From Anaerolineales bacterium (lineage in GTDB: Bacteria; Chloroflexota; Anaerolineae; Anaerolineales; VGOW01): a stretch of 8,657 nt of DNA. The notes under the pieces are model-generated. The model made no database searches. It saw nothing but the letters and a program-made list of their open reading frames with translations, and was not told the DNA's origin. This document shows, in pieces, positions 588 to 8,657 of the stretch (its first letter is position 1; each line of letters begins with the position of its first letter). The stretch is from the NCBI GenBank assembly GCA_919901875.1, contig CAKKQG010000228.1, positions 1-8,657 on the forward strand. Direction: 5' to 3'. The translations under genes and the position numbers were made by a program.

Positions 588-1201
588 ACCCGCAATTACT
601 AATTACTATTTACAAAGTAGTAACCTGGATCGTCGAGCAAGTGATTCAACGCCGAGTTGAGTCATCGCCACAGGCAAAAGCGAAAAAAGTTCAACAACGA
701 AAATCGTCGGCGTATTTTTCTGTGATGCAAATGGTGGTGTTCTTCTTTGGCGCACTTGCCGCATCCATGTTCATGTGCGTGGACTTGGTCTTCGCTCAAG
801 ACGGCAAGCCCATCACCGACGATCAAGTGAATGTGGTCGCCAAACAACTCTTCTGCCCCATCTGCGAAAACATTCCGCTTGACGTGTGTCCGACTCAAGC
901 CTGCGCGCAATGGCGCGACACCATCCGCGAAAAACTTGCCATGGGTTGGTCAGAAGATCAGATCAAAGATTATTTTGTTCAGCAATATGGCGAGCGCGTG
1001 TTGGCAAAGCCGCGCACGACAGGTTTAAGTTTATATGTGTGGATTATCCCGCCCGCCGCAATTCTGATCGGCGCATTGTTCTTCGCGTGGTATGTGCGTA
1101 ACGCGCGTATGAAAACCGCCGCTGTTGTCCCCGCCTCAACCGAAGACGAAGATGATGACTACTCTAAACAGTTAGAGAAAGAGTTAGCGAAGAGAAGATA
1201 A
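584..1201 (+). CDS. ccmH: CcmH-type thiol-disulfide subunit of the cytochrome c heme lyase, four-Cys variant
   Basis: CcmH is a membrane-anchored redox protein that presents or reduces the apocytochrome CxxCH thiols for CcmF. From the ATG at 584 the product has 205 residues: an unusual 47-residue N-terminal extension, a hydrophobic signal/anchor (about 49-70), a compact helical domain and a second membrane helix (about 151-170), then an acidic, charged cytoplasmic tail. The active site reads FCPICENIPLDVC followed by PTQACAQWR, so Cys91/Cys94 form the CxxC, with two further cysteines at 102 and 107; the classic form is LRCxxC. The WSEDQIKDYFVQQYGERVL stretch (122-140) is typical of the family. 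The start is uncertain. 584 is coupled to ccmF, but codons 4-15 lie in heptamer repeats, and Met48 (725) or Met50 (731), just before the hydrophobic segment, would give a normal signal-anchor protein. Neither candidate has a clear Shine-Dalgarno. Confidence 0.9.
   Translation: MNPQLLITIYKVVTWIVEQVIQRRVESSPQAKAKKVQQRKSSAYFSVMQMVVFFFGALAASMFMCVDLVFAQDGKPITDDQVNVVAKQLFCPICENIPLDVCPTQACAQWRDTIREKLAMGWSEDQIKDYFVQQYGERVLAKPRTTGLSLYVWIIPPAAILIGALFFAWYVRNARMKTAAVVPASTEDEDDDYSKQLEKELAKRR
594..628. repeat. Short heptamer tandem array inside the 5' end of ccmH
   Basis: Five 7-bp units in strict register (AATTACT twice, ATTTACA, AAGTAGT, AACCTGG) lie directly behind the ATGA junction of ccmF and ccmH. 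The ten bases TACTAATTAC (597-606) recur at 1303-1312 in the array after ccmH. This is the only array here placed fully inside a reading frame, and it encodes about residues 4-15 of the annotated ccmH product. Confidence 0.65.
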
Positions 1202-1203
1202 GC

Positions 1204-1348
1204 AATGAAGAATGAAGAATGAAACAATGAACAATGAAACTTCAAACTTCAAATTTCAAATTTCAAACTCCAATCTCTAATCTCTAATCTCCAATTACCA
1301 TTTACTAATTACCAAAATGGAATCTCCAATCTCCACTCCCCAATCTCC
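1204..1348. repeat. Heptamer tandem array between ccmH and the TlpA gene
   Basis: Nearly the whole spacer is made of 7-bp words. It begins with AATGAAG/AATGAAC-type units (1204-1240, with two one-base slips). From 1241 it holds exact register for ten units: TTCAAAC and TTCAAAT, then TCTAATC, then ACCATTT and ACTAATT. After a slip at the ATG (1317) it continues inside the next gene as AATCTCC (1321-1327, 1328-1334, 1342-1348) and ACTCCCC. I see no Shine-Dalgarno or clear promoter in it. It is A-rich or C/T-rich on the + strand, unlike the balanced coding sequence around it. Confidence 0.8.
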
Positions 1349-1871
1349 TCCCACCAGCCTCAAGCGCATCCTCGGTTGGGTCGCCGCCGCCAGCATCTTG
1401 GTGGCATTGCTCGGCATGATCGCCGTTAAACTGATTCAAGTTCAGCAAGGGCAAGTGTCGTCCGGCTCCGCGCCCGACTTCACGCTCAATACATTTGATG
1501 GCAAACAAATTTCGCTTCAATCACTGCGCGGCAAAGTGGTCGTATTAAATTTCTGGGCGTCGTGGTGTAAGCCGTGCGAAGATGAAGCCGCCGACCTCGA
1601 AGCGTTCCACAGAGCTTACAAAGATAAAGGCGTGGTCATGCTCGGCGCAGATTACGTGGACACCGAGAAAGAAGCGCTGGCTTACATCAAAAAGTTCAAC
1701 ATCACATATCCTATGGGACCTGATCTCGGCACCAAGATGTCGCAAGCCTATCGCATCAAAGGCGTGCCAGAAACTTTTGTGATTGACAAGCAAGGACAGT
1801 TGATCAAAGTGATTGTGGGACCGACGACGAGCAAGGACTTATCTCAAATTGTGGAGCCGTTATTGAAGTAA
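1317..1871 (+). CDS. Membrane-anchored thioredoxin of the TlpA/ResA/CcmG (DsbE) family
   Basis: This is a 184-residue thiol-disulfide oxidoreductase that probably keeps apocytochrome c heme-binding cysteines, or CcmH, reduced outside the cytoplasm. After a short N-terminal tail comes one membrane helix (about 19-38), then APDFTLNTFDGKQISL (52-67), which is the usual opening of the AhpC/TSA-Redoxin-type fold. The active site is WASWCKPC (Cys84, Cys87). GVPETFVID (149-157) holds the cis-proline (Pro151) in the form typical of CcmG. The length fits the family. The start at 1317 is the only ATG ahead of the membrane helix. It has no visible Shine-Dalgarno, and codons 3-11 are built of AATCTCC-type heptamers, so the N-terminal MESPISTPQSPP stretch is probably repeat-derived and dispensable. 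The position between ccmH and the CcmI-like gene supports the CcmG role; ResA-like function remains possible. Confidence 0.9.
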   Translation: MESPISTPQSPPTSLKRILGWVAAASILVALLGMIAVKLIQVQQGQVSSGSAPDFTLNTFDGKQISLQSLRGKVVVLNFWASWCKPCEDEAADLEAFHRAYKDKGVVMLGADYVDTEKEALAYIKKFNITYPMGPDLGTKMSQAYRIKGVPETFVIDKQGQLIKVIVGPTTSKDLSQIVEPLLK

Positions 1872-1874
1872 TCA

Positions 1875-1937
1875 GTTACCAGTGAACAGTAAACAGTCAC
1901 ATCACTGATCACTGATAACTGACCACTGATTACTAAA
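1875..1937. repeat. Heptamer tandem array with central polarity switch
   Basis: Nine 7-bp units fill the spacer after the TlpA gene without a slip. The left part is GTTACCA, GTGAACA, GTAAACA, GTCACAT and the right part CACTGAT (1903, 1910 and 1924), AACTGAC, TACTAAA. Left units read CAGT across their joints and right units read ACTG, so the halves are roughly reverse complements. The segments at 1873-1884 and 1910-1921 pair at 11 of 12 positions. No other signal is visible before the ATG at 1943. Confidence 0.8.
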
Positions 1938-1942
1938 TACAC

Positions 1943-2440
1943 ATGGATCTCGGATTTATTTTCACCGCACTCGCTCTCTTCATTCTAGTCGCCGCCTTCG
2001 TCGCCCGCCCGCTCATCGAGAAGATGAGCGGCGTGGAAACCGAAAAGACTCACGCCGATGATCTCTTTGCCCAGCGCGAAGCGATCTTGATCGAACTGCG
2101 TGACGTGGATTTCGATCACGACACGGGCAAGATGAACGACGACGATCACAAGGAACAACGCGCCCGCCTCACGGCGAAGGGAGTGGAAGTTCTGCGCGCT
2201 CTCGACGCACTCAAATCGCAAGAAGTCGCGCCGCTCCTCAACACAGTTGAAGACGAAATTGAAAATCTGATCGCCATCAAGCGCGGCAAGAAGATCGTCA
2301 AGCCATTACCCTCTAACGGCAAAACACCTCAAGGCACCGCCGATACATTCTTCTGCACCCAATGCGGCACGCCAGCCCATGCCGACGACAAATTCTGCGC
2401 CAAGTGCGGGGCGGCGTTGCAAAAGGTTTGGCAGGATTGA
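1943..2440 (+). CDS. CcmI-like membrane coiled-coil protein with C-terminal zinc ribbon
   Basis: The 165-residue product has one N-terminal membrane helix (about 4-21), a charged helical segment (about 38-95) and a C-terminal zinc ribbon with paired CxxC knuckles (Cys138/Cys141 and Cys152/Cys155, in FCTQCGT and FCAKCGAAL). The helical part contains the pattern LRDVDFDHDTGKMNDDDHKE, which resembles the cytoplasmic loop of proteobacterial CcmI (a short acidic helix, then Gly, then a second charged helix). Unlike CcmI there is no second membrane helix and no TPR domain. The zinc ribbon suggests the soluble part is cytoplasmic. Its place between the CcmG-type gene and the cytochrome gene supports a role in cytochrome c assembly, perhaps as a scaffold for CcmF/CcmH, but this is inference. 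The start at 1943 leaves the membrane helix intact and has no recognisable Shine-Dalgarno. Confidence 0.75.
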   Translation: MDLGFIFTALALFILVAAFVARPLIEKMSGVETEKTHADDLFAQREAILIELRDVDFDHDTGKMNDDDHKEQRARLTAKGVEVLRALDALKSQEVAPLLNTVEDEIENLIAIKRGKKIVKPLPSNGKTPQGTADTFFCTQCGTPAHADDKFCAKCGAALQKVWQD

Positions 2441-2449
2441 TTTGATTTC

Positions 2450-2503
2450 GTAGGGGCGACCCTTGCGGTCGCCCTTTTGAGCGGGGGCAAGCCCCGCCCC
2501 TAC
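2450..2503. repeat. GC-rich palindromic spacer element with two hairpins
   Basis: The outer arms GTAGGGGC (2450-2457) and GCCCCTAC (2496-2503) are perfect inverted repeats. Inside are two local stems: 2454-2461 with 2467-2474 (8 bp, loop CTTGC), followed by TTTT at 2475-2478, and 2481-2486 with 2492-2497 (6 bp, loop of 5). The element fills the spacer between the zinc-ribbon gene and the cytochrome gene. It looks like a dispersed small palindromic repeat. The first hairpin plus T-run could also act as a weak terminator or an mRNA 3' end stabiliser. It is unlike the heptamer arrays at the other spacers. Confidence 0.7.
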
Positions 2504-2511
2504 ACCCCACC

Positions 2512-4326
2512 ATGATCAAAAAAATAATTCTCTCTCTCTCTTTCATCTTTGTCCTCGCCGCCTGTTCTCTGGCCGACGATGTCACACCGCCACCCGGTTT
2601 CAAACCGCAAGTGCAAAGCACGCTCGCGCCGTCGCAGATGCCTAACGCTAAAGTAACGCCGGTTGATGTAAGCAATGCCGCACCATCATCGTTGCCCTCA
2701 CCTTCTTTAGGCGCGGCGATTTACGCCAAGAACTGCACCCGCTGTCACGGAGTTAACGGCGCGGGCGATGGGCAACTCGTGGCGCAGATTCCGTTTCCGC
2801 TGCCGGACTTCACCAAACCCGATCTGGCTCGAACCACGACTCCGCAAAAATGGTATGGGGCGATCACCAACGGCAACTTAGATCGCATAATGCCACCGTG
2901 GCAAACGCTCTCCGATTCAGAGCGTTGGAATCTTGTGTCGTATCTCTACACATTAAGCACGCCGCCGAATCAAATTGAATCAGGTCGCAAGGTGTATGAA
3001 TCAAATTGCCAAAGCTGTCACGGCTCAAACGGCAAAGGCGGCGTCCCCGAAGTGAAAGTGGATTTCACGAATCAAAGCTACGTCGTCAAAAAATCCAACA
3101 ATGATCTATTTGAAGCCATCAGCAAAGTGACCGCGCACAAATTAGAGTCTGTCAACGAATCGGATCGCCGCGCGGCGATTGATTATGTGCGCTCACTGTC
3201 GTACGATGTCGCGCCTGTGGTGCAAGCCAATAAAGGCGCGGTGAGCGGAAAGATCAGCAACGGCACACCCGACGGAAAAGTTCCAGCCGATCAACCCATC
3301 GTCTTAAACATCTTCGACAACTTTCAACCAACCGAGTCGATCACCGTCACTGCCAAGATGGACGGCGCGTTCATCTTCAACGACGTGAAGATGAACGACG
3401 GGCGGGCGTTTATCCTCAGCACCAAATACAACGGCATCACTTACGTCTCCGATGTTGGCAGTGTGACCGCCGGGACAACGACTTACGACTTGCCGATTCA
3501 AATTTTTGAAGTGACGAATGATTCGGGCGCGGTGCGGATCGAACAGATGCACATTGTGTTTGAGTTTGACAGCGGCAACGCCAGCGTGGGCGAACTCTAC
3601 GTGATCAGCAACTTGGGTGATCGTGCGTATGCCGCCGCAAAACTCGGCGACCCGACTCTCAATTTTGCGCTGCCCAGCGGATACAAGAATTTGCAATTTG
3701 AAGATGGCGACATCGGTGATCGTTACAAGCTCACCGCCGACGGTTTCGCCGACACTCAAGCGGTGCGCCCCGGCGCGAGCAACTATCAGATCGTGTCGCA
3801 ATACCTGTTGCCGTATAGCGACGCGCTGACTTTTACTCAAAAAATTTTCTACACCACTAACAGCCTCAGCATCCTGATACCGGATGTCGGCGTCACTTTA
3901 AGCGGCGGCGGATTCACCGACATGGGTGTGCGCGATATTCAAGGCACAAAATTCAGAACGTATACCTCCAACGGCGCGAAAGCCGGTGACGTGATCAAAT
4001 TCGATCTCAAGGGCAAGCCGACTCTCAACGCGAATGCCGCCGCGCCTTCTTCAACCACCGATACCACCACTGCCCTCATCGGCGGGCTGGCGTTAGGACT
4101 CGCGCTGTCTATCGTGGCGTTGTATTACTGGAATACGAAGAACGCGCAGACTCCGCAGTCGGCAACCGTGAACGTGAAGCATATCTCCAAACGCCGCGAT
4201 GAACTCGTCGCCGAGATCGCCGACCTCGACGAGGGTTTTGAGAACGGCGAATACTCTGAAGCCGAATACAAAAAAGAAAGAGAAAAGTTGAAGGCGGAGT
4301 TGAGGCGCGTGATGCGTAATTCGTGA
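2512..4326 (+). CDS. Diheme cytochrome c lipoprotein with beta-rich domains, membrane helix and CcmI-like cytoplasmic tail
   Basis: The 604-residue product begins with a lipoprotein signal (lipobox LAAC, Cys18). A proline/serine linker leads to two cytochrome c domains: CTRCH at 75-79 with probable axial Met127 in the sequence RIMPPW, and CQSCH at 166-170. The second domain has no Met after its heme motif; His209 or Lys210 sits where the Met is expected. Residues about 242-505 look like one or two extracytoplasmic beta-sandwich domains (an opening GAVSGKISNGTPDGK resembling carboxypeptidase-regulatory-like repeats, then a Gly/Thr/Asp-rich domain). A membrane helix (about 520-540) and a charged coil (about 560-601) end it. 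That coil aligns without gaps with the coil of the zinc-ribbon protein encoded just upstream. The protein is probably an exported electron carrier tethered at both ends and matured by the surrounding Ccm proteins; its redox partners are unknown. The start has no Shine-Dalgarno but gives a perfect signal peptide. Confidence 0.85.
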   Translation: MIKKIILSLSFIFVLAACSLADDVTPPPGFKPQVQSTLAPSQMPNAKVTPVDVSNAAPSSLPSPSLGAAIYAKNCTRCHGVNGAGDGQLVAQIPFPLPDFTKPDLARTTTPQKWYGAITNGNLDRIMPPWQTLSDSERWNLVSYLYTLSTPPNQIESGRKVYESNCQSCHGSNGKGGVPEVKVDFTNQSYVVKKSNNDLFEAISKVTAHKLESVNESDRRAAIDYVRSLSYDVAPVVQANKGAVSGKISNGTPDGKVPADQPIVLNIFDNFQPTESITVTAKMDGAFIFNDVKMNDGRAFILSTKYNGITYVSDVGSVTAGTTTYDLPIQIFEVTNDSGAVRIEQMHIVFEFDSGNASVGELYVISNLGDRAYAAAKLGDPTLNFALPSGYKNLQFEDGDIGDRYKLTADGFADTQAVRPGASNYQIVSQYLLPYSDALTFTQKIFYTTNSLSILIPDVGVTLSGGGFTDMGVRDIQGTKFRTYTSNGAKAGDVIKFDLKGKPTLNANAAAPSSTTDTTTALIGGLALGLALSIVALYYWNTKNAQTPQSATVNVKHISKRRDELVAEIADLDEGFENGEYSEAEYKKEREKLKAELRRVMRNS

Positions 4327-4405
4327 AGCGTGATACGTGATGCGTGATGCGTATTCCGTATTGCGTATTGCGTAACGAAATACGGAATACGAAATACGAA
4401 ATACG
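4308..4405. repeat. Heptamer tandem array spanning the cytochrome gene stop codon, with inverted second half
   Basis: Fourteen 7-bp units in perfect register (98 bp). Left units are CGTGATG, CGTAATT, CGTGAAG, CGTATTC, CGTATTG; right units are AAATACG and GAATACG, the reverse-complement style of the left words, switching at 4371-4378. A perfect 12-bp inverted repeat is CGTATTCCGTAT (4350-4361) with 4380-4391. The first three units lie inside the cytochrome gene and supply its last codons and TGA stop (4324-4326). Only 15 bases remain between the array and the ccmA ATG. Confidence 0.88.
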
Positions 4406-4420
4406 GTTTAAGCGACACCA

Positions 4421-5116
4421 ATGATAGAGATACACAACCTCACCAAAAACTTCGGCATGAAACCCGTGCTGCGCGGAGTCAATCTCACGGTGGAGCGCGG
4501 CGAGTTTGTGGCGTTGATGGGACCGAACGGCGCGGGCAAGACGACTCTACTGCGGATCGTCGCTTCACTCACGCGACCCACCTTGGGGCGTGTTCGGGTG
4601 AATAGCTTTGATCTCCCGGCGCACGCCGACTCGGTGCGTCGCGTGTTGGGCGTGGTCTCGCATCACACGCTGCTCTATGGCGATCTGACCGCCGAAGAAA
4701 ATTTGCGCTTCTACGGTCAACTGTATAGCGTGGAAAATTTGTCGAAGCGAATCGATGACGTTTTAAATCAGGTGGGATTGAGCAAGAGACGGCACGACCT
4801 TGTGCGCTCTTTTTCGCGCGGCATGGCGCAGCGGCTCTCCATCGGGCGCGCGGTGCTCCATTCACCCGACGTGATGCTGTTCGACGAGCCGCACACCGGG
4901 CTCGATCAAGAGGCAAGCGCGATGCTGGATAAACTTCTCAAATCTGTTGCCGCGCAGGGGCGCAGCGTGCTGATGATCTCGCACGATCTACCGCGCTCAT
5001 TGCAATTAGCCGATCGCGTGACGATCCTTTCGCACGGCAAGATCGCTTACGACTCACCGACAAAAAATTTATCGCTTGCCGATTTTGCCAAGACCTATAA
5101 TGAACTCGCGCAATGA
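4421..5116 (+). CDS. ccmA: Heme exporter ATP-binding protein CcmA
   Basis: CcmA is the cytoplasmic ATPase of the CcmABCD complex, whose ATP hydrolysis releases heme-loaded CcmE. The product has 231 residues, a normal length for the family. Walker A is GPNGAGKTT (34-42), the ABC signature is SRGMAQR (132-138) in the Met form common in CcmA, Walker B is [12 protein letters not shown] (151-162) with Asp155/Glu156, and the switch His is His188 in SHD. The segment [19 protein letters not shown] (84-102) is typical of CcmA. The Q-loop position, usually reached through His-Gln, reads SHHTLLY (80-86), so His82 stands where Gln is common. The start gives a complete first strand ([12 protein letters not shown]); no Shine-Dalgarno is visible and the spacer is almost all heptamer repeat. 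ccmB follows after an octamer array. Confidence 0.93.
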
Positions 5117-5131
5117 CGAGGAATGGAAATA

Positions 5132-5211
5132 CGTAAACAAGTAAACAGGTAGACACGTTTCCCTTGTTTCCCTGCTTCCTTGTTTCCCTGTATACCTGTT
5201 TACCCATATCC
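5132..5211. repeat. Octamer tandem array between ccmA and ccmB
   Basis: Ten 8-bp units in register (80 bp). Left units are CGTAAACA, AGTAAACA, GGTAGACA; right units are TTGTTTCC, CTGCTTCC, CTGTATAC, CTGTTTAC, CCATATCC. The segment CCTTGTTTCCCTG occurs twice 16 bp apart (5162-5174, 5178-5190). The arms GTAAACAGGTA (5141-5151) and TACCTGTTTAC (5193-5203) are perfect inverted repeats. The period is 8, not 7, but the design matches the other arrays. Nine bases separate it from the ccmB ATG, with no Shine-Dalgarno. Confidence 0.85.
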
Positions 5212-5220
5212 CTTTTTATA

Positions 5221-5895
5221 ATGAAGTCTTACCTCCAAGCCATTCTCGCCATCGCCCACAAAGACCTTGCGGCAGAAATACGAAGCCGCGAACTCGTCAG
5301 CGCGATGCTGGTCTTCTCGTTACTCGTGGTGTTGATCTTTAACTTTGCGCTTGATCTCGACAAGTCGGCGCGAGAGAATGTGGCGGCAGGCGTGTTGTGG
5401 GTCACCTTCACCTTTGCCGGAACGTTGGGTCTTAACCGCACCTTCGCCGCCGAAAAAGATCGAGGCTCGCTTGATGGTCTTCTGCTCGCGCCGGTAGATC
5501 GCACGGCGATCTATTTTGGAAAATTGATCAGCACACTCGTCTTCATGCTGCTGGTCGAGGCGGTTGTGCTGCCTGTGTTCACCGTGCTATATGGAATCTC
5601 GCTCTTCAACATTTTATTGTTCGGCGTGATCTTGCTCGGCACGTTTGGTTATGGCGGGGTCGGCACGTTGCTGGCCTGCATGGCGGCGCAAACGCGGACG
5701 CGCGATGTGATGTTGCCGATTCTTTTATTCCCCGTCACCGTCCCGGTCATGCTCGGCGCAGTGCGCGCCAGCACCGGCATCCTCGCCAATGCTGAGTGGG
5801 GCGAAATCCTAACTTGGATCAACATTTTGGTTGTCTACGATGTGATCTTCGTGGCAGTGGCGGTGATGGTGTTTGATTATTTGATTGAAGAATAG
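5221..5895 (+). CDS. ccmB: Heme exporter membrane protein CcmB
   Basis: CcmB is the permease-like partner of the CcmA ATPase in the heme-handling ABC module. From the ATG at 5221 the product has 224 residues, close to the usual 220. It begins with an amphipathic stretch containing KDLAAEIRSRE (14-24), a CcmB hallmark, followed by about six membrane helices. The loop EKDRGSLDGLLLAP followed by VDRTAIYFGK (78-101) is the second family hallmark and is where the ATPase probably docks. A TTG at 5164 in the same frame would add 19 residues, but these are encoded by the octamer array and would spoil the known N-terminus, so 5221 is preferred. The gene sits between ccmA and ccmC in standard System I order, with an octamer array before it and a heptamer array after it. 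Confidence 0.92.
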   Translation: MKSYLQAILAIAHKDLAAEIRSRELVSAMLVFSLLVVLIFNFALDLDKSARENVAAGVLWVTFTFAGTLGLNRTFAAEKDRGSLDGLLLAPVDRTAIYFGKLISTLVFMLLVEAVVLPVFTVLYGISLFNILLFGVILLGTFGYGGVGTLLACMAAQTRTRDVMLPILLFPVTVPVMLGAVRASTGILANAEWGEILTWINILVVYDVIFVAVAVMVFDYLIEE

Positions 5896-5898
5896 CTG

Positions 5899-5961
5899 AC
5901 TCGTGTTTCGTATTGCGTATTCCGTAAAACGATCTACGAGACGCAATACGAAATACGCAAT
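5899..5961. repeat. Heptamer tandem array between ccmB and ccmC, related to the one before ccmA
   Basis: Nine 7-bp units in register: ACTCGTG, TTTCGTA, TTGCGTA, TTCCGTA, AAACGAT, CTACGAG, then ACGCAAT, ACGAAAT, ACGCAAT. A perfect 13-bp inverted repeat is TTTCGTATTGCGT (5906-5918) with 5941-5953. Two 13-mers are shared with the array before ccmA: CGTATTGCGTATT (4357-4369 and 5909-5921) and AATACGAAATACG (4386-4398 and 5945-5957). Related arrays therefore flank ccmA-ccmB as direct repeats. Confidence 0.85.
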
Positions 5962-5966
5962 ACACC

Positions 5967-5973
5967 AAAAGGA
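5967..5973 (+). promoter_or_regulatory. Ribosome binding site of ccmC
   Basis: AAAAGGA ends six bases before a GTG at 5980. It is one of the few clear Shine-Dalgarno sequences in the cluster and decides the non-ATG start of ccmC, because no better start lies near the first membrane helix. Confidence 0.7.
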
Positions 5974-5979
5974 TTTACC

Positions 5980-6678
5980 GTGTCCTCCTCAACCCCAAAA
6001 CCTCTCCAAATCCTCAACATCGTTTCGATCCTCATGTTCATCATCTCACTCGGGTTGGTATTTTTTTACGCTCCGCGCGAGGCAGTGATGGGCGAAGCGC
6101 AGAGGATTTTTTATTACCACGTCCCTTCGGCCTGGCTCAGCTTCGTCGCCTTCGGAGTCACGCTCATCGCCGGCATCGCCTATTTGCGTACCAGCGATCA
6201 CAGGTGGGATCGATTGGGTATCGCCTCGGTTGAAGTCGGCATTGTGTTTGCGGTCATGGCGTTGCTCAGTGGCATGTTATGGGCGCGCCCGATCTGGAAT
6301 ACGTGGTGGACATGGGATCCGCGACTCACGACGTATACGATTTTGCTGTTGATCTACTTTGCCTATCTCATGCTGCGTCAAGGAATCGAAGATCCCGACA
6401 AGCGGGCGCGATTCGGATCGGTCTACGGCATCGTCGGCTTCATCAGCGTGCCGATCACTTACTTCTCCATTTATCTGTGGCGCACGATCCATCCGGCGGT
6501 ATTTGGCAGAAACGAGTCGGAGACCAAGATGAGTATGGAACCTCAAATGCTTCAAACCTTCATCTTTTGCAACATTTTCTTTATGGTAGTTTTTGTTACT
6601 CTCCTCTGGCATCGCTTCCGTCTTGAGAGTAACACCGCGCGGGTTGAAGAATTGCGGATGAAAGCGAGCAATGCTTAG
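5980..6678 (+). CDS. ccmC: Heme handling protein CcmC, GTG start
   Basis: CcmC binds heme at the outer membrane face and is needed to attach it covalently to CcmE. The 232-residue product has six predicted membrane helices and the heme-handling signature WNTWWTWDPRLT (106-117, WWTWD at 109-113). The two family heme-ligand histidines are His47 in FYYHVPSAW and His171 in TIHPAVFG. The length is normal. The GTG start is supported by AAAAGGA six bases upstream and by a short polar N-terminus before helix 1. The next gene, CcmD-like, begins two bases after the stop. CcmC and the homologous CcsA/ResC proteins share WWD motifs, but the WWTWD form, the length and the ccmAB context favour CcmC. Confidence 0.95.
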   Translation: MSSSTPKPLQILNIVSILMFIISLGLVFFYAPREAVMGEAQRIFYYHVPSAWLSFVAFGVTLIAGIAYLRTSDHRWDRLGIASVEVGIVFAVMALLSGMLWARPIWNTWWTWDPRLTTYTILLLIYFAYLMLRQGIEDPDKRARFGSVYGIVGFISVPITYFSIYLWRTIHPAVFGRNESETKMSMEPQMLQTFIFCNIFFMVVFVTLLWHRFRLESNTARVEELRMKASNA

Positions 6679-6680
6679 CT

Positions 6681-6842
6681 ATGTTCACCCAAACCCCCGA
6701 CACCTCTTGGTACATGATCGTTGGCTACATCGTCTTCATCACTCTGCCGACTCTGTTCATTGTCAGTATGATCTGGCGGCACAGGAACTTGATGAAAGAT
6801 GAAGAGATGATCAAAAACCTACTTGAAGACGAGAAGAAGTAA
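6681..6842 (+). CDS. CcmD-like small membrane protein (53 aa)
   Basis: This small gene starts two bases after the ccmC stop. It encodes 53 residues: a short polar start (MFTQTPDTSW), one membrane helix (about residues 11-32, YMIVGYIVFITLPTLFIVSM), then RHRNLMKDEEMIKNLLEDEKK, a charged cytoplasmic tail. Size, single helix, charged tail and position right after ccmC match CcmD, the small subunit that helps release heme-CcmE from the CcmABC complex. CcmD is poorly conserved in sequence, so the assignment rests on topology and context. The stop TAA (6840-6842) runs into the A-rich left arm of a terminator, making this the last gene of the cluster. Confidence 0.75.
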   Translation: MFTQTPDTSWYMIVGYIVFITLPTLFIVSMIWRHRNLMKDEEMIKNLLEDEKK

Positions 6843-6876
6843 AAAGAGAGGCGACCCATGAGGTCGCTTCTTCTTT
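6842..6876 (+). terminator. Rho-independent terminator closing the ccm cluster
   Basis: A 6-bp GC stem, GCGACC (6851-6856) with GGTCGC (6862-6867), has the loop CATGA. The stem is extended by A/G-rich bases on the left (6842-6850) that pair with the TTCTTCTTT run on the right (6868-6876), with two G-T wobbles and one mismatch. The T-rich tail and location right behind the CcmD-like stop make it a convincing terminator. The A-run on the left could let it work on the other strand too. Confidence 0.8.
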
Positions 6877-6880
6877 ATCG

Positions 6881-6886
6881 TATAAT
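6881..6886 (+). promoter_or_regulatory. Probable -10 box for the DUF433/PIN-like pair
   Basis: A perfect TATAAT lies directly behind the terminator and 20 bases before the DUF433 start, with a predicted transcript start around 6892-6894. I see no good TTGACA-like -35 at the right distance, because that region is the terminator stem. The call therefore rests on the -10 match and its position between a terminator and a gene with a good ribosome binding site. Confidence 0.5.
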
Positions 6887-6892
6887 TGAGAC

Positions 6893-6897
6893 GAGGA
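6893..6897 (+). promoter_or_regulatory. Ribosome binding site of the DUF433 gene
   Basis: GAGGA lies eight bases before the ATG at 6906. It favours 6906 over the in-frame ATG at 6858, which lies inside the terminator hairpin. Confidence 0.75.
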
Positions 6898-6905
6898 ACT
6901 TCACC

Positions 6906-7220
6906 ATGAAACCCGCAAAAACTCGCTTTACTGCAAAAGGTCTTATCCGCGAAGTGCGAAGCGGTGAGACTTACGAATACTATCCGCTTGGGAAATATAT
7001 TGTTGCCGCGCCCGGTGTTTGCGGCGGCAGACCCACATTTAAATACACACGCATTGAAGCTGGATTCGTTCTCGATCTCCTTGCAAACGGCTGGACAATT
7101 GATGAAGTGATCAAGGAATATAAAGCGAGTAAACTTTCGGCGAAAGCAGTGCGCGAGGCGATCAATTTAGCTAAAGAAGCTTTTGTGCAATCATCGCTTG
7201 TATTACAGCTCGCTACATGA
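6906..7220 (+). CDS. DUF433 domain protein, probable antitoxin
   Basis: The 104-residue product carries the DUF433 core: YIVAAPGVCGGRPTFKYTRI (31-50), then GFVLDLLANGWTIDEVIKEY (53-72). In this family the core makes a small winged-helix/HTH-like DNA-binding domain. DUF433 proteins are commonly encoded just before DUF5615 PIN-like proteins and are considered antitoxins of such pairs; that assignment is family knowledge. Here the stop overlaps the next ATG (ATGA, 7217-7220), as expected for a coupled pair. The start at 6906 is chosen for GAGGA and TATAAT upstream. Residues 1-30 are a positively charged, less typical extension. It probably represses its own promoter at 6881, which would be an inference from the family. 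Confidence 0.82.
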   Translation: MKPAKTRFTAKGLIREVRSGETYEYYPLGKYIVAAPGVCGGRPTFKYTRIEAGFVLDLLANGWTIDEVIKEYKASKLSAKAVREAINLAKEAFVQSSLVLQLAT

Positions 7221-7621
7221 TCGTCCTCGACGAAGGAATACACGGGCACTTTATTATTAAGCCAATTGCGTCTTGGTATAGCGGGCGCGTCATTTCTGTA
7301 ACGGCTCTGCGCCCAAAAACTGTCATCAAAGATGACGCGATTCCGTCTCTACTTCGCTCTGCCCCTCGTCCCACATTCATCACCATCAACACAACAGACT
7401 TTTGGCGAATCGCCTCTGCCGATTCGCGTTACTGTATTCTCTGCTTCGATCTCGATGCAAAGCAAATCAAAACGCTTCCCGACTCACTGCGCCGTCTTCT
7501 TCAGCTGACCGAGTTCAAGACAAGAGAATCCCGTCTTGGCAAAGTCGCGCGCGTGCGATCAAATCGAATCGACTATTACGAATTAGACAAGCGTGTTCAC
7601 ACATTAACTCGGTCTGATTAA
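7217..7621 (+). CDS. DUF5615 PIN-like protein, probable toxin
   Basis: The 134-residue product fits the DUF5615 family, small PIN-like proteins related to RNases of toxin-antitoxin systems. The acidic residues expected to bind metal are visible: Asp5/Glu6 in MIVLDEGIHG, Asp39/Asp40 in KDDAIPSLL, and Asp61 in FITINTTDFW (54-63). The segment RYCILCFDLD (71-80) is a likely core strand. The C-terminal third (about 95-134) is basic and less typical. It overlaps the upstream DUF433 gene by four bases, so it is translated from the same message. The first strand is intact and the acidic set is complete, so I see no sign of inactivation. RNase activity is inferred from the family, not shown. Confidence 0.8.
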   Translation: MIVLDEGIHGHFIIKPIASWYSGRVISVTALRPKTVIKDDAIPSLLRSAPRPTFITINTTDFWRIASADSRYCILCFDLDAKQIKTLPDSLRRLLQLTEFKTRESRLGKVARVRSNRIDYYELDKRVHTLTRSD

Positions 7622-7632
7622 TCATCTGTGTT

Positions 7633-7637
7633 AGGAG
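7633..7637 (+). promoter_or_regulatory. Ribosome binding site of the gene at 7645
   Basis: AGGAG sits seven bases before the ATG at 7645 and fixes the start of the long open gene that follows. Confidence 0.75.
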
Positions 7638-7644
7638 CTTCGCC

Positions 7645-8657
7645 ATGACTCTTCTCACCGCCGCCGATGAACGTGGTCTTAAAGGGTTAAGCCTCGACAG
7701 CCGCGTGCGCCAATTGTTTTATAGTCTCCCGCGCGAGACGGTCAAAGAGCTGGCTGACCGCATCCCCGTCGAATCGCGCAATCAAAAATTGATCTACATG
7801 CGCGACGGCAAAGAGGATGTGATCAACGTCATGCTGCGCCCCATCGCCGTGATGCCCGATCAAGTCTCCTATTTTCACGTCGTCTCGCTCGCCATCATCA
7901 ACGCCCTCAAACGTTTGCCCGATCTTTACATTCAGGATTTTGCCGTTCGCGAGGTTGTGCCGTTGAACTCCGACGAAGAAAAATGGTTGTGGGATACGTG
8001 GCAGCAGAGTCATCGCGAAGACAATCCGGTGTTCGGGCGGCTGGATGCGATGGTAGATTTTACGAGTCCGATGTGGAAAGATTCGTTGAACTTCGTCGAA
8101 CCGAATCTCTCCGGGGTTGGCGGCATCCATTTGATCCCCAGCTGTGAGCAAGCGATGACCGACGCGGTGCTGCCGACTCTGCAATCCCACGCGCCCGATC
8201 TGCATCTTGAACCGGGGCTCGATCTGCGTGAGATGTTCATCCAAGAGATTCTTGATCATCTCGAAGCGATCCACCGACCCAATGGCACGCTGTGTTTCAT
8301 TGATCCCAAATATGCCGGTGATGGACCCGAAGAACTTGCGGCGTTGACCGAATACTATAAAGAGACTCGCGGACTGACGGTTGTTCACGCCGATCCGTCG
8401 GAACTATATGTGCGCGGCGGCGAGGTGTGGTATGAAGACACAAAAATTGATGTGGCGTATCGCGATTACGAAGTGCGCGACTTGATCGCCATGGAGAAAG
8501 ACGACGGACTCGACATCAAGCCCATGAAGATTCTATTCAAAGAAAATCGCGTCGTCTCCTCAATGGCGGGCGATTTTGATCACAAATCTACCTGGGAGAT
8601 CTTGACCGACCCGCGCTTCACCGAAAAGTATTTCACCGCCGATGACCGCCATTACTT
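7645..8657 (+). CDS. Uncharacterised protein, possibly circularly permuted ATP-grasp-like (3' end outside window)
   Basis: The frame is open from the ATG at 7645 to the right edge, giving at least 337 residues. AGGAG seven bases upstream supports the start. There is no signal peptide or membrane helix, so it should be cytoplasmic. Visible parts are a helical N-terminal region (1-60), FVEPNLSGVGGIHLIPS (150-166) with a Gly-rich turn, LCFIDPKYAGDGPEELAAL (217-235), and VHADPSELYVRGGEVWYED (247-265), soon followed by IDVAYRDYEVRDL (268-280). The last pattern (a recorded label, then a strand, then Y-R) reminds me of circularly permuted ATP-grasp and glutathionylspermidine-synthase-like proteins. 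The catalytic part that would confirm this lies beyond the window. It starts 23 bases after the PIN-like gene and could share its message, but nothing ties it to the toxin pair or the ccm genes. Confidence 0.7.
   Translation, partial: MTLLTAADERGLKGLSLDSRVRQLFYSLPRETVKELADRIPVESRNQKLIYMRDGKEDVINVMLRPIAVMPDQVSYFHVVSLAIINALKRLPDLYIQDFAVREVVPLNSDEEKWLWDTWQQSHREDNPVFGRLDAMVDFTSPMWKDSLNFVEPNLSGVGGIHLIPSCEQAMTDAVLPTLQSHAPDLHLEPGLDLREMFIQEILDHLEAIHRPNGTLCFIDPKYAGDGPEELAALTEYYKETRGLTVVHADPSELYVRGGEVWYEDTKIDVAYRDYEVRDLIAMEKDDGLDIKPMKILFKENRVVSSMAGDFDHKSTWEILTDPRFTEKYFTADDRHY

Follow-up and report, generated by a model that had tools for sequence, protein, structure and literature searches.

Heptad arrays in a cytochrome c assembly operon

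The sequence under study, referred to as the window, consists of bases 1-8657 of contig C228 (12,582 bases), which belongs to a metagenome-assembled genome (MAG) of an Anaerolineales bacterium (label G000; 2.63 Mb, 484 contigs, 63.7% complete). Its four genus mates are labelled G001-G004, of which G003 is the closest. Pfam matches identified in the window a cytochrome c assembly (ccm) operon of eight genes, all on the + strand: the C-terminal part of CcmF (6-587, PF16327), CcmH (584-1201, PF03918), a thioredoxin-fold protein (AhpC/TSA, Redoxin; 1317-1871, PF00578 and PF08534), a small zinc-ribbon protein (1943-2440, PF13240), a cytochrome c protein with two matched cytochrome stretches (2512-4326, PF13442 and PF00034), an ABC transporter ATPase in the CcmA position (4421-5116, PF00005), CcmB (5221-5895, PF03379), and a CcmC-type cytochrome c assembly protein (5980-6678, PF01578). 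An array of degenerate tandem repeats is present in five of the six ccm spacers that measure at least 70 nt, and these arrays are the subject of this study.

We compared eight stretches of the window with dinucleotide shuffles by autocorrelation. The results showed that six were periodic beyond all 500 shuffles: lag-7 identity was 0.53 at 584-628, 0.72 at 1196-1350, 0.66 at 1866-1945, 0.66 at 4300-4425, and 0.53 at 5890-5982, and lag-8 identity was 0.61 at 5117-5222. No period-7 excess was found at 2441-2511 or 6842-6905 in the same test. Tandem Repeats Finder (TRF) was concordant, and the period of 7 bp (8 bp at 5132-5211) proposed in a first-pass annotation of the window was thus borne out. 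The array edges given there were kept at 1204-1348 and were refined elsewhere to 1867-1940, 4307-4405, 5127-5204, and 5899-5963. The same annotation had placed the arrays between genes, at most gene boundaries. This holds for the five spacers, but its remaining array, at 594-628, lies in the first codons of the ccmH frame, and the sixth spacer (2441-2511) has a lag-7 identity of only 0.25 and contains another dispersed palindrome. That palindrome, of the GTAGGGGCGACC...GGGGCAAGCCCCGCCCCTAC type, resembles copies found at other places in G003, and the heptad-free spacer also folds (RNA fold z -3.28).

Inversion is seen in four of the five spacer arrays, where an arm of one word is followed by an arm of the reverse-complement word, and these four are predicted to fold into hairpins. 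All coordinates refer to the + strand. The heptad hairpin at 1867-1940 has a CAGTNNN arm (1867-1897) and an ACTGNNN arm (1904-1934), each of 31 nt and 77% complementary; it contains the stop codon of the gene upstream and gave an RNA fold z of -4.99 (1866-1944). The composite array at 4307-4405 contains GCGTGAT words, an NCGTATT arm (4343-4373), and an inverted AATACGN arm (4375-4405), the arms being 31 nt long, 81% complementary, and 1 nt apart (z -2.92 for 4304-4408). The hairpin at 5127-5204 is built of 8-bp octads, with a GTAAACAG-type arm and an inverted TGTTTCCC/TGTTTAC arm (lag-8 identity 0.70; z -3.29 for 5117-5220). At 5899-5963, a TTNCGTA arm (5903-5925) is followed by an inverted ACGNAAT arm (5941-5963), with 23-nt arms that are 83% complementary (z -6.86 for 5896-5970). 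The fifth spacer array, at 1204-1348, is a direct composite detected also by TRF (lag-7 identity 0.75), in which four word families follow one another in the order CAATGAA, CTTCAAA, CAATCTC, AATTACC; it forms no hairpin (inverted score 7; z -0.62 for 1202-1348). The array at 594-628 is weak and made of AATTACT-type words (lag-7 identity 0.64; TRF 594-613, 2.9 copies), and is the shortest, with the lowest z of the window set. Arrays overlap coding ends in two places: the cytochrome gene ends within an array that takes in its final 20 nt (4307-4326), and the opening codons of the thioredoxin gene are array sequence as well (1317-1348). A search of the window against Rfam gave 0 matches at the gathering score, and a known RNA family was rejected.

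The arrays had also been called register-perfect, each with a word of its own. TRF, however, placed indels in 1203-1238, and the word flips to its reverse complement at the second arm of the inverted arrays. The word CGTATTN is common to 4307-4405 and 5899-5963, and it recurs genome-wide.

Abundance and position of the arrays in the genome

We scanned forty consecutive G000 contigs (274,731 bases), with one shuffle per contig as control. The results showed 48 period-7 arrays, together with 11 arrays of period 14 and 4 of 21; every other period gave 5 or fewer, and the shuffled contigs gave 0 period-7 arrays. The sample from G001 yielded 15 period-7 and 9 period-8 arrays, against 0 in its shuffle. 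The expected excess of period 7 over shuffled controls was therefore present. All five genomes of the genus contain arrays, as does CP070708, a contig of 3.4 Mb whose record is titled chromosome.

The 113 period-7 segments of the G000 sample fell into 25 word clusters. A genome-wide search for three tandem copies of GCGTATT with at most 3 mismatches found 224 places in G000, against 2 for the reversed pattern, and 135, 298, 32, and 3 places in G001, G003, G002, and G004, respectively. No such tract was found in 26 of the 41 genomes searched, and words vary between lineages, for example GGGTATT in G021. The arrays in the ccm spacers are members of genome-wide dispersed families of degenerate heptad (sometimes octad) arrays. 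The first-pass argument that arrays with their own words are not copies is not supported, given the 224 places of the one word counted genome-wide and the word order that distant arrays share in G000 and G003, but not in G001.

Array placement was determined with gene calls from a codon-score finder, which recovers all eight ccm-operon genes of the window. Among co-oriented spacers, G000 had an array in 53 of 198, G001 in 16 of 244, and G003 in 34 of 140, the last rate not being unbiased because the G003 stretches were partly picked for arrays. Pooled, 103 of 582 co-oriented spacers held an array, compared with 9 of 106 convergent or divergent ones (Fisher p 0.02), and the corresponding counts for inverted arrays were 43 of 582 versus 1 of 106 (p 0.008). 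The arrays start a median of 0-14 nt past the stop codon and end 8-15 nt ahead of the next start codon. Bases within called genes made up 20% of array bases in G000 (where 78% of the sample is coding), 24% in G003, and 45% in G001.

Inverted arms and arm order

More than a quarter of the sampled arrays consist of two inverted arms of complementary words. The hairpin score was reached by 46 of 167 elements (24 of 83, 8 of 28, and 14 of 56), compared with 1 of 167 after shuffling. Among 142 adjacent tract pairs of the same period, a set that takes in ten G001 stretches and several G003 contigs picked for holding arrays, 60 were reverse complements, whereas re-pairing of the words gave 9.5 on average (maximum 20 in 300 trials). 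Median arm lengths were 27.5 and 27 nt, and the loops had a median of 7 nt and reached 51 nt. Arrays of the same plan but other periods also occur, namely inverted arrays of period 9 (L123 3495-3553) and period 8 (L085 10883-10979).

We then scored the pairing between arms unit by unit. The results showed that observed pairing was below that of permuted units (944.5 versus 995.1; better in 14 of 60, Wilcoxon p 3e-5), and compensatory pairing, as expected under RNA selection, was rejected. The match between arms thus holds for the word and not for the individual units, which counts against selection on the base pairs of the stem.

The arm order of inverted arrays reads identically on both strands, and it was counted in 121 genomes of the order, with overlapping matches included and the words read backwards as control. 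CAGTNNNCAGT before ACTGNNNACTG, that is, CAGTNNN first, gave 440 matches in 34 genomes, and the opposite order gave 10 matches in 5 genomes, an excess of about fortyfold; the backward control words gave 41 versus 26. The N letters of these hairpins vary by genome. In a collection of viral contigs, each order matched at least 120 stretches; 30 of the first 120 CAGT-first stretches hold two or more such places (some share a contig), compared with 0 of the 78 stretches of opposite order examined. Three IMG/VR contigs filed as viral (L259, L227, and L212; 61-62% GC) carry up to ten CAGT-first hairpins each, with AAAGGCAAAA in the loops in either orientation.

Local counts of the first arm gave 15:0 for ATGAA and 6:0 for CAAAC, while grouping by loose word matching gave 44 in the majority order and 11 in the minority. 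By word tracts, CGTATT was split 8 versus 6. A census of five-letter doublets found 816 hairpin-type doublets in total against 650 in shuffled sequence, and only its top words are therefore informative. G skew of the first arm was rejected as the cause of the polarity: of 60 cases, 41 had a positive and 17 a negative skew (Wilcoxon p 0.12). A fixed orientation of direct arrays relative to the mRNA was also rejected, the counts being mixed (AATCTC 11:6, ATGAA 10:6, CGTAT 4:12).

Orthologous spacers in related genomes

To the question of whether the same spacers are periodic in relatives, the answer was positive for several spacers in the genus mates, but not for all. The spacer between the thioredoxin and zinc-ribbon genes holds inverted heptads of CAGTNNN/ACTGNNN in the window, of TAATTAG in G003 (where the upstream protein is 96% identical to that of the window), and of AATACCC in G002; in G001 the arms are AATTCACA-type and include an inverted match that is perfect over 16 bp (inverted score 16), and in G004 the spacer is 2 nt long. 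The cytochrome-to-ABC spacer has GTCAAAC arms in G001 and is 8 nt long in G004. The word CAATGAA occurs in the CcmH-to-thioredoxin spacer of all five genus genomes. At this spacer, G003 contigs C286 (L070 4562-4667) and C152 (L058 115-205) overlap and carry the CAATGAA/CTTCAAA/AATCTC array in two versions of different length, perhaps strain variants.

The CcmB-to-CcmC spacer is without an array in G001, while two more distant relatives have inverted arrays of GGGATTA (period 7) and GGGTGACA (period 8) there. Of the 21 loci compared, a set to which G002 and G004 themselves belong, 11 had no array of any period. The CcmB-CcmC gap is about 0.87 kb in G004 (L055 9380-10259) and G002 (L056 5627-6484). 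Within it, G002 has a CPYC-containing frame of 272 aa (5642-6460), and G004 has an in-frame TGA at the codon of the first CPYC Cys of G002, which may reflect selenocysteine or an error.

Thirteen of 73 G000 elements could be mapped to G003. Judged by eye, 3 were kept, 2 were partly kept, 6 had another word or geometry, and 2 were lost, one of these being a 40-nt array in G000 that corresponds to 4 nt in G003, with a single unit remaining. At one orthologous spacer the word differs by a single letter in a close relative (AGTAATC to AGTAATT). In L155, L157, and L159, G003 has a different palindrome (e.g. GTAAAGACGTTGCATGCAACGTCTCTAC) where G000 has a heptad array, as if spacers traded one repeat type for another.

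A GGATGAA/TTCATCC heptad hairpin located 3' of the window, before a PmbA/TldD gene (L053 9262-9329), is identical in G003 at 68 of 68 positions, with flanks that are 91 and 89% identical. Inverted GGATGAA arrays are present at this junction in G002 and G004 as well. Past the ccm genes, window positions 6842-8655 contain a DUF433 protein gene (6906-7220), a frame that is unassigned (7217-7621), and another, long one that gave no Pfam match (7645-8655). The frame before PmbA/TldD (L053 7645-9266) is split by the gene finder in G000 into 7645-8760 and 8841-9266 and is one frame of about 1.47 kb in G003 and G004; the relative's version also has no Pfam match.

Unit order shared by distant arrays

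We searched arrays more than 3 kb apart for shared strings of units. The results showed 6 pairs with a score of at least 40 in G000, compared with a mean of 0.4 after permutation of units, and 5 pairs with a score of at least 36 in G003, compared with 0.1. CTTCAAA precedes AATCTC in 78:24 cases in G000 and 57:16 in G003, counts that include overlapping and chance matches. One universal word order was rejected. The chain AACAATG, AAATCCC, AAACTTC, AATCTCC, AATTACC is largely directional in G000 and G003, with AAATCCC/AAACTTC standing at 2:2 within G000, and no direction was seen for several other pairs of words.

Comparison with known repeats

Cyanobacteria (Calothrix, Anabaena, Nostoc) carry heptanucleotide short tandemly repeated repetitive (STRR) sequences, which are degenerate 7-bp repeats, intergenic, of several words per genome, and variable between close strains. 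The present arrays resemble them in the tandem 7-bp period, the mainly intergenic and dispersed location, and the several word classes. They differ in that they occur in another phylum, are often inverted pairs with a fixed arm order, and occupy about a quarter of the co-oriented spacers in G000. The P6b stem of the cyanobacterial tRNA-Leu intron also has complementary heptad arms, but at one locus inside an intron, whereas the present arrays are dispersed. REP sequences are conserved in sequence. REP, BIME, and REPIN palindromes, as described in the accessible part of their literature, are likewise dispersed intergenic hairpins; the present hairpins, unlike them, are built of tandem heptads, with drifting words, different loops, and a Y1 transposase gene nearby only once. 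Other sequences of about 80-115 bp (L118 1-86; L128 6113-6196 and 7773-7886) have many copies in G003 with about 80-97% identity and are possibly of the miniature inverted-repeat transposable element type.

The following comparisons refer to the accessible text of two studies. TAACTGA repeats have been described in Beggiatoaceae, Cyanobacteria, and Bacteroidetes (MacGregor 2015, PMC4679880). They are intergenic, with mixed heptamers in some genomes and 7-nt indels between close strains, and they comprise 169 direct sets and one inverted set, related heptamers being rare in the main genome (PMC4679880). TAACTGA is a rotation of ACTGATA and so a member of the CAGTNNN/ACTGNNN family, but the present genomes hold inverted arrays of many words, unlike the mostly direct sets in Beggiatoaceae. 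In the window, one TAACTGA (1916) and one TCAGTTA (1872) lie in opposite arms of one hairpin, with no direct repeat. Mostly intergenic GGGNATC or GGGGA(C/T)T heptamers have been described in Xanthomonas and Nostoc (Rehm 2015, PMC4692102), which also cites the Calothrix heptamers. Two Xanthomonas genomes have 70 and 75 paired GGGAATC arrays that are convergent, that is, with inverted arms of one polarity, and Nostoc has few inverted pairs; the word was studied as a quadruplex former (PMC4692102). The present arrays share paired inverted arms of one polarity with Xanthomonas, and one relative (L131) has GGGATTA-first arms. Unlike the single G-rich word of Xanthomonas and Nostoc, the words here are many, few are G-rich, and different ones occur at the same spacer. 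The GGGNATC unit is absent from the window arrays; the two strands of the window together have 3 single matches, none of them in an array.

Heptamer arrays, their intergenic place, paired arrays of one word, and 7-nt strain indels are thus already known, as far as the accessible text of PMC4679880 and PMC4692102 goes. What is added here is an Anaerolineales genus as a rich case, the preference of inverted arrays for co-oriented spacers, the replacement of one word by another at a given spacer, and a polarity of this strength. Word change under a kept hairpin at one spacer was not found in the accessible parts of these two papers, and no report of heptamer arrays in Chloroflexi was found in the titles and abstract openings searched, the subscription literature being mostly beyond reach.

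Possible origin of the arrays

The first-pass annotation had suggested a shared generating process, and this is supported by the period-7 excess in the sample together with the periodic orthologous spacers in genus mates. Our favoured explanation, to which we give about an even chance, is that slippage and copying from array to array lengthen, re-word, and seed the dispersed arrays of 7 bp (sometimes 8 bp). Replication slippage and local homogenisation would change array length and let words drift, as from AGTAATC to AGTAATT, and copying from other arrays would supply new seeds and shared word order. The arrays would persist mainly in within-operon gaps, since insertion there would do little harm. 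Inverted arrays are predicted to place stem-loops with arms of about 27 nt between cistrons of one mRNA, and these may alter mRNA decay or coupling. The fixed arm order might stem from recognition of the inverted form by some protein or copying enzyme.

Several results weigh against this combination of slippage and copying. Slippage alone does not predict a fixed arm polarity, and that of CGTAT hairpins is just 17:6. Shared unit order in G001 was not above permutation (10 pairs with a score of at least 20, permuted maximum 10), and the CTTCAAA/AATCTC order was 28:41 in G004, 10:14 in G001, and 15:9 in G002; copying is therefore supported only in the G000/G003 lineage. Permuting the units also removes their short-range alternation, so part of the shared-order excess need not be copying. 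No copying enzyme was found; the MAG has 3 Y1 transposase genes, one with an array within about 400 nt. In G001, 45% of array bases fall within called genes, and more than 90% of the element lies inside a called gene for 13 of 83 elements in G000, 10 of 28 in G001, and 13 of 56 in G003.

Pure neutral slippage is possible, if unlikely. Here the polymerase would favour 7-nt duplications that are born locally and tolerated outside genes, with neither copying nor function. Among long repeats, heptamers were reported to be the most abundant class in the majority of genomes studied, and it was proposed that the polymerase contacts 7 nt (Mrazek 2007, as cited in PMC4679880). The near-empty site in G003 and the single-letter word change at an orthologous spacer fit this explanation as well. 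Local births, however, do not predict the excess of reverse-complement arms, the arm order of 440:10, or a unit order common to distant sites.

We regard as unlikely a bolder proposal, in which a dedicated copying activity would write tandem-heptad inverted repeats into within-operon gaps in one arm order only (CAGTNNN first and ACTGNNN second; likewise ATGAA first and GGGNATC first). Its range would span unrelated bacteria, the variable letters being specific to each lineage, and each spacer would be free to change its word while the hairpin stays, so that the geometry would be inherited and the sequence would not.

Selection of the inverted arrays as 3' stabilisers or insulators of mRNA, acting on the fold rather than the word, seems rather unlikely. 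It would account for their concentration between co-oriented genes, for the hairpin geometry that one spacer keeps in four genomes although the words differ, and for the array at the PmbA/TldD junction, which is better conserved than its flanks and has counterparts in G002 and G004. Against it stand the unit-by-unit pairing, with no sign of compensation, the 121 of 167 elements below the hairpin score, and the orthologous thioredoxin-to-zinc-ribbon spacer of 2 nt in G004. Intrinsic terminators were rejected as the general case, as TTTT follows within 12 nt in only 5 of the 56 hairpin elements between co-oriented genes.

It is improbable that a RAYT-type Y1 transposase moves the arrays as mobile hairpins of the REP/REPIN kind: they are dispersed, intergenic, palindromic, and of fixed polarity, and the MAG has three Y1_Tnp matches, but an array lies near only one of these genes, and the arms consist of tandem heptads whose words drift and whose loops vary. 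Chance or an assembly artefact is negligible as an explanation and already refuted, since the shuffles of window stretches (0 of 500), sampled contigs, and hairpin scores reject chance and composition and arrays recur in five genus genomes and CP070708, even though the MAG is fragmented and C286 ends inside the G003 ortholog of the 1204-1348 array where C152 overlaps with a different version.

There is no agreed mechanism for heptamer repeats, although several phyla are known to have them. In the genus studied here, the sample extrapolates to hundreds of arrays per genome, and close relatives allow orthologous spacers to be compared. Such comparison indicates that the same spacer can keep a heptad hairpin while its word changes. 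The arm-order bias of the CAGTNNN hairpins can be counted in any genome, and it sets a sharp constraint for slippage, fold-back copying, transposition, and RNA selection alike.

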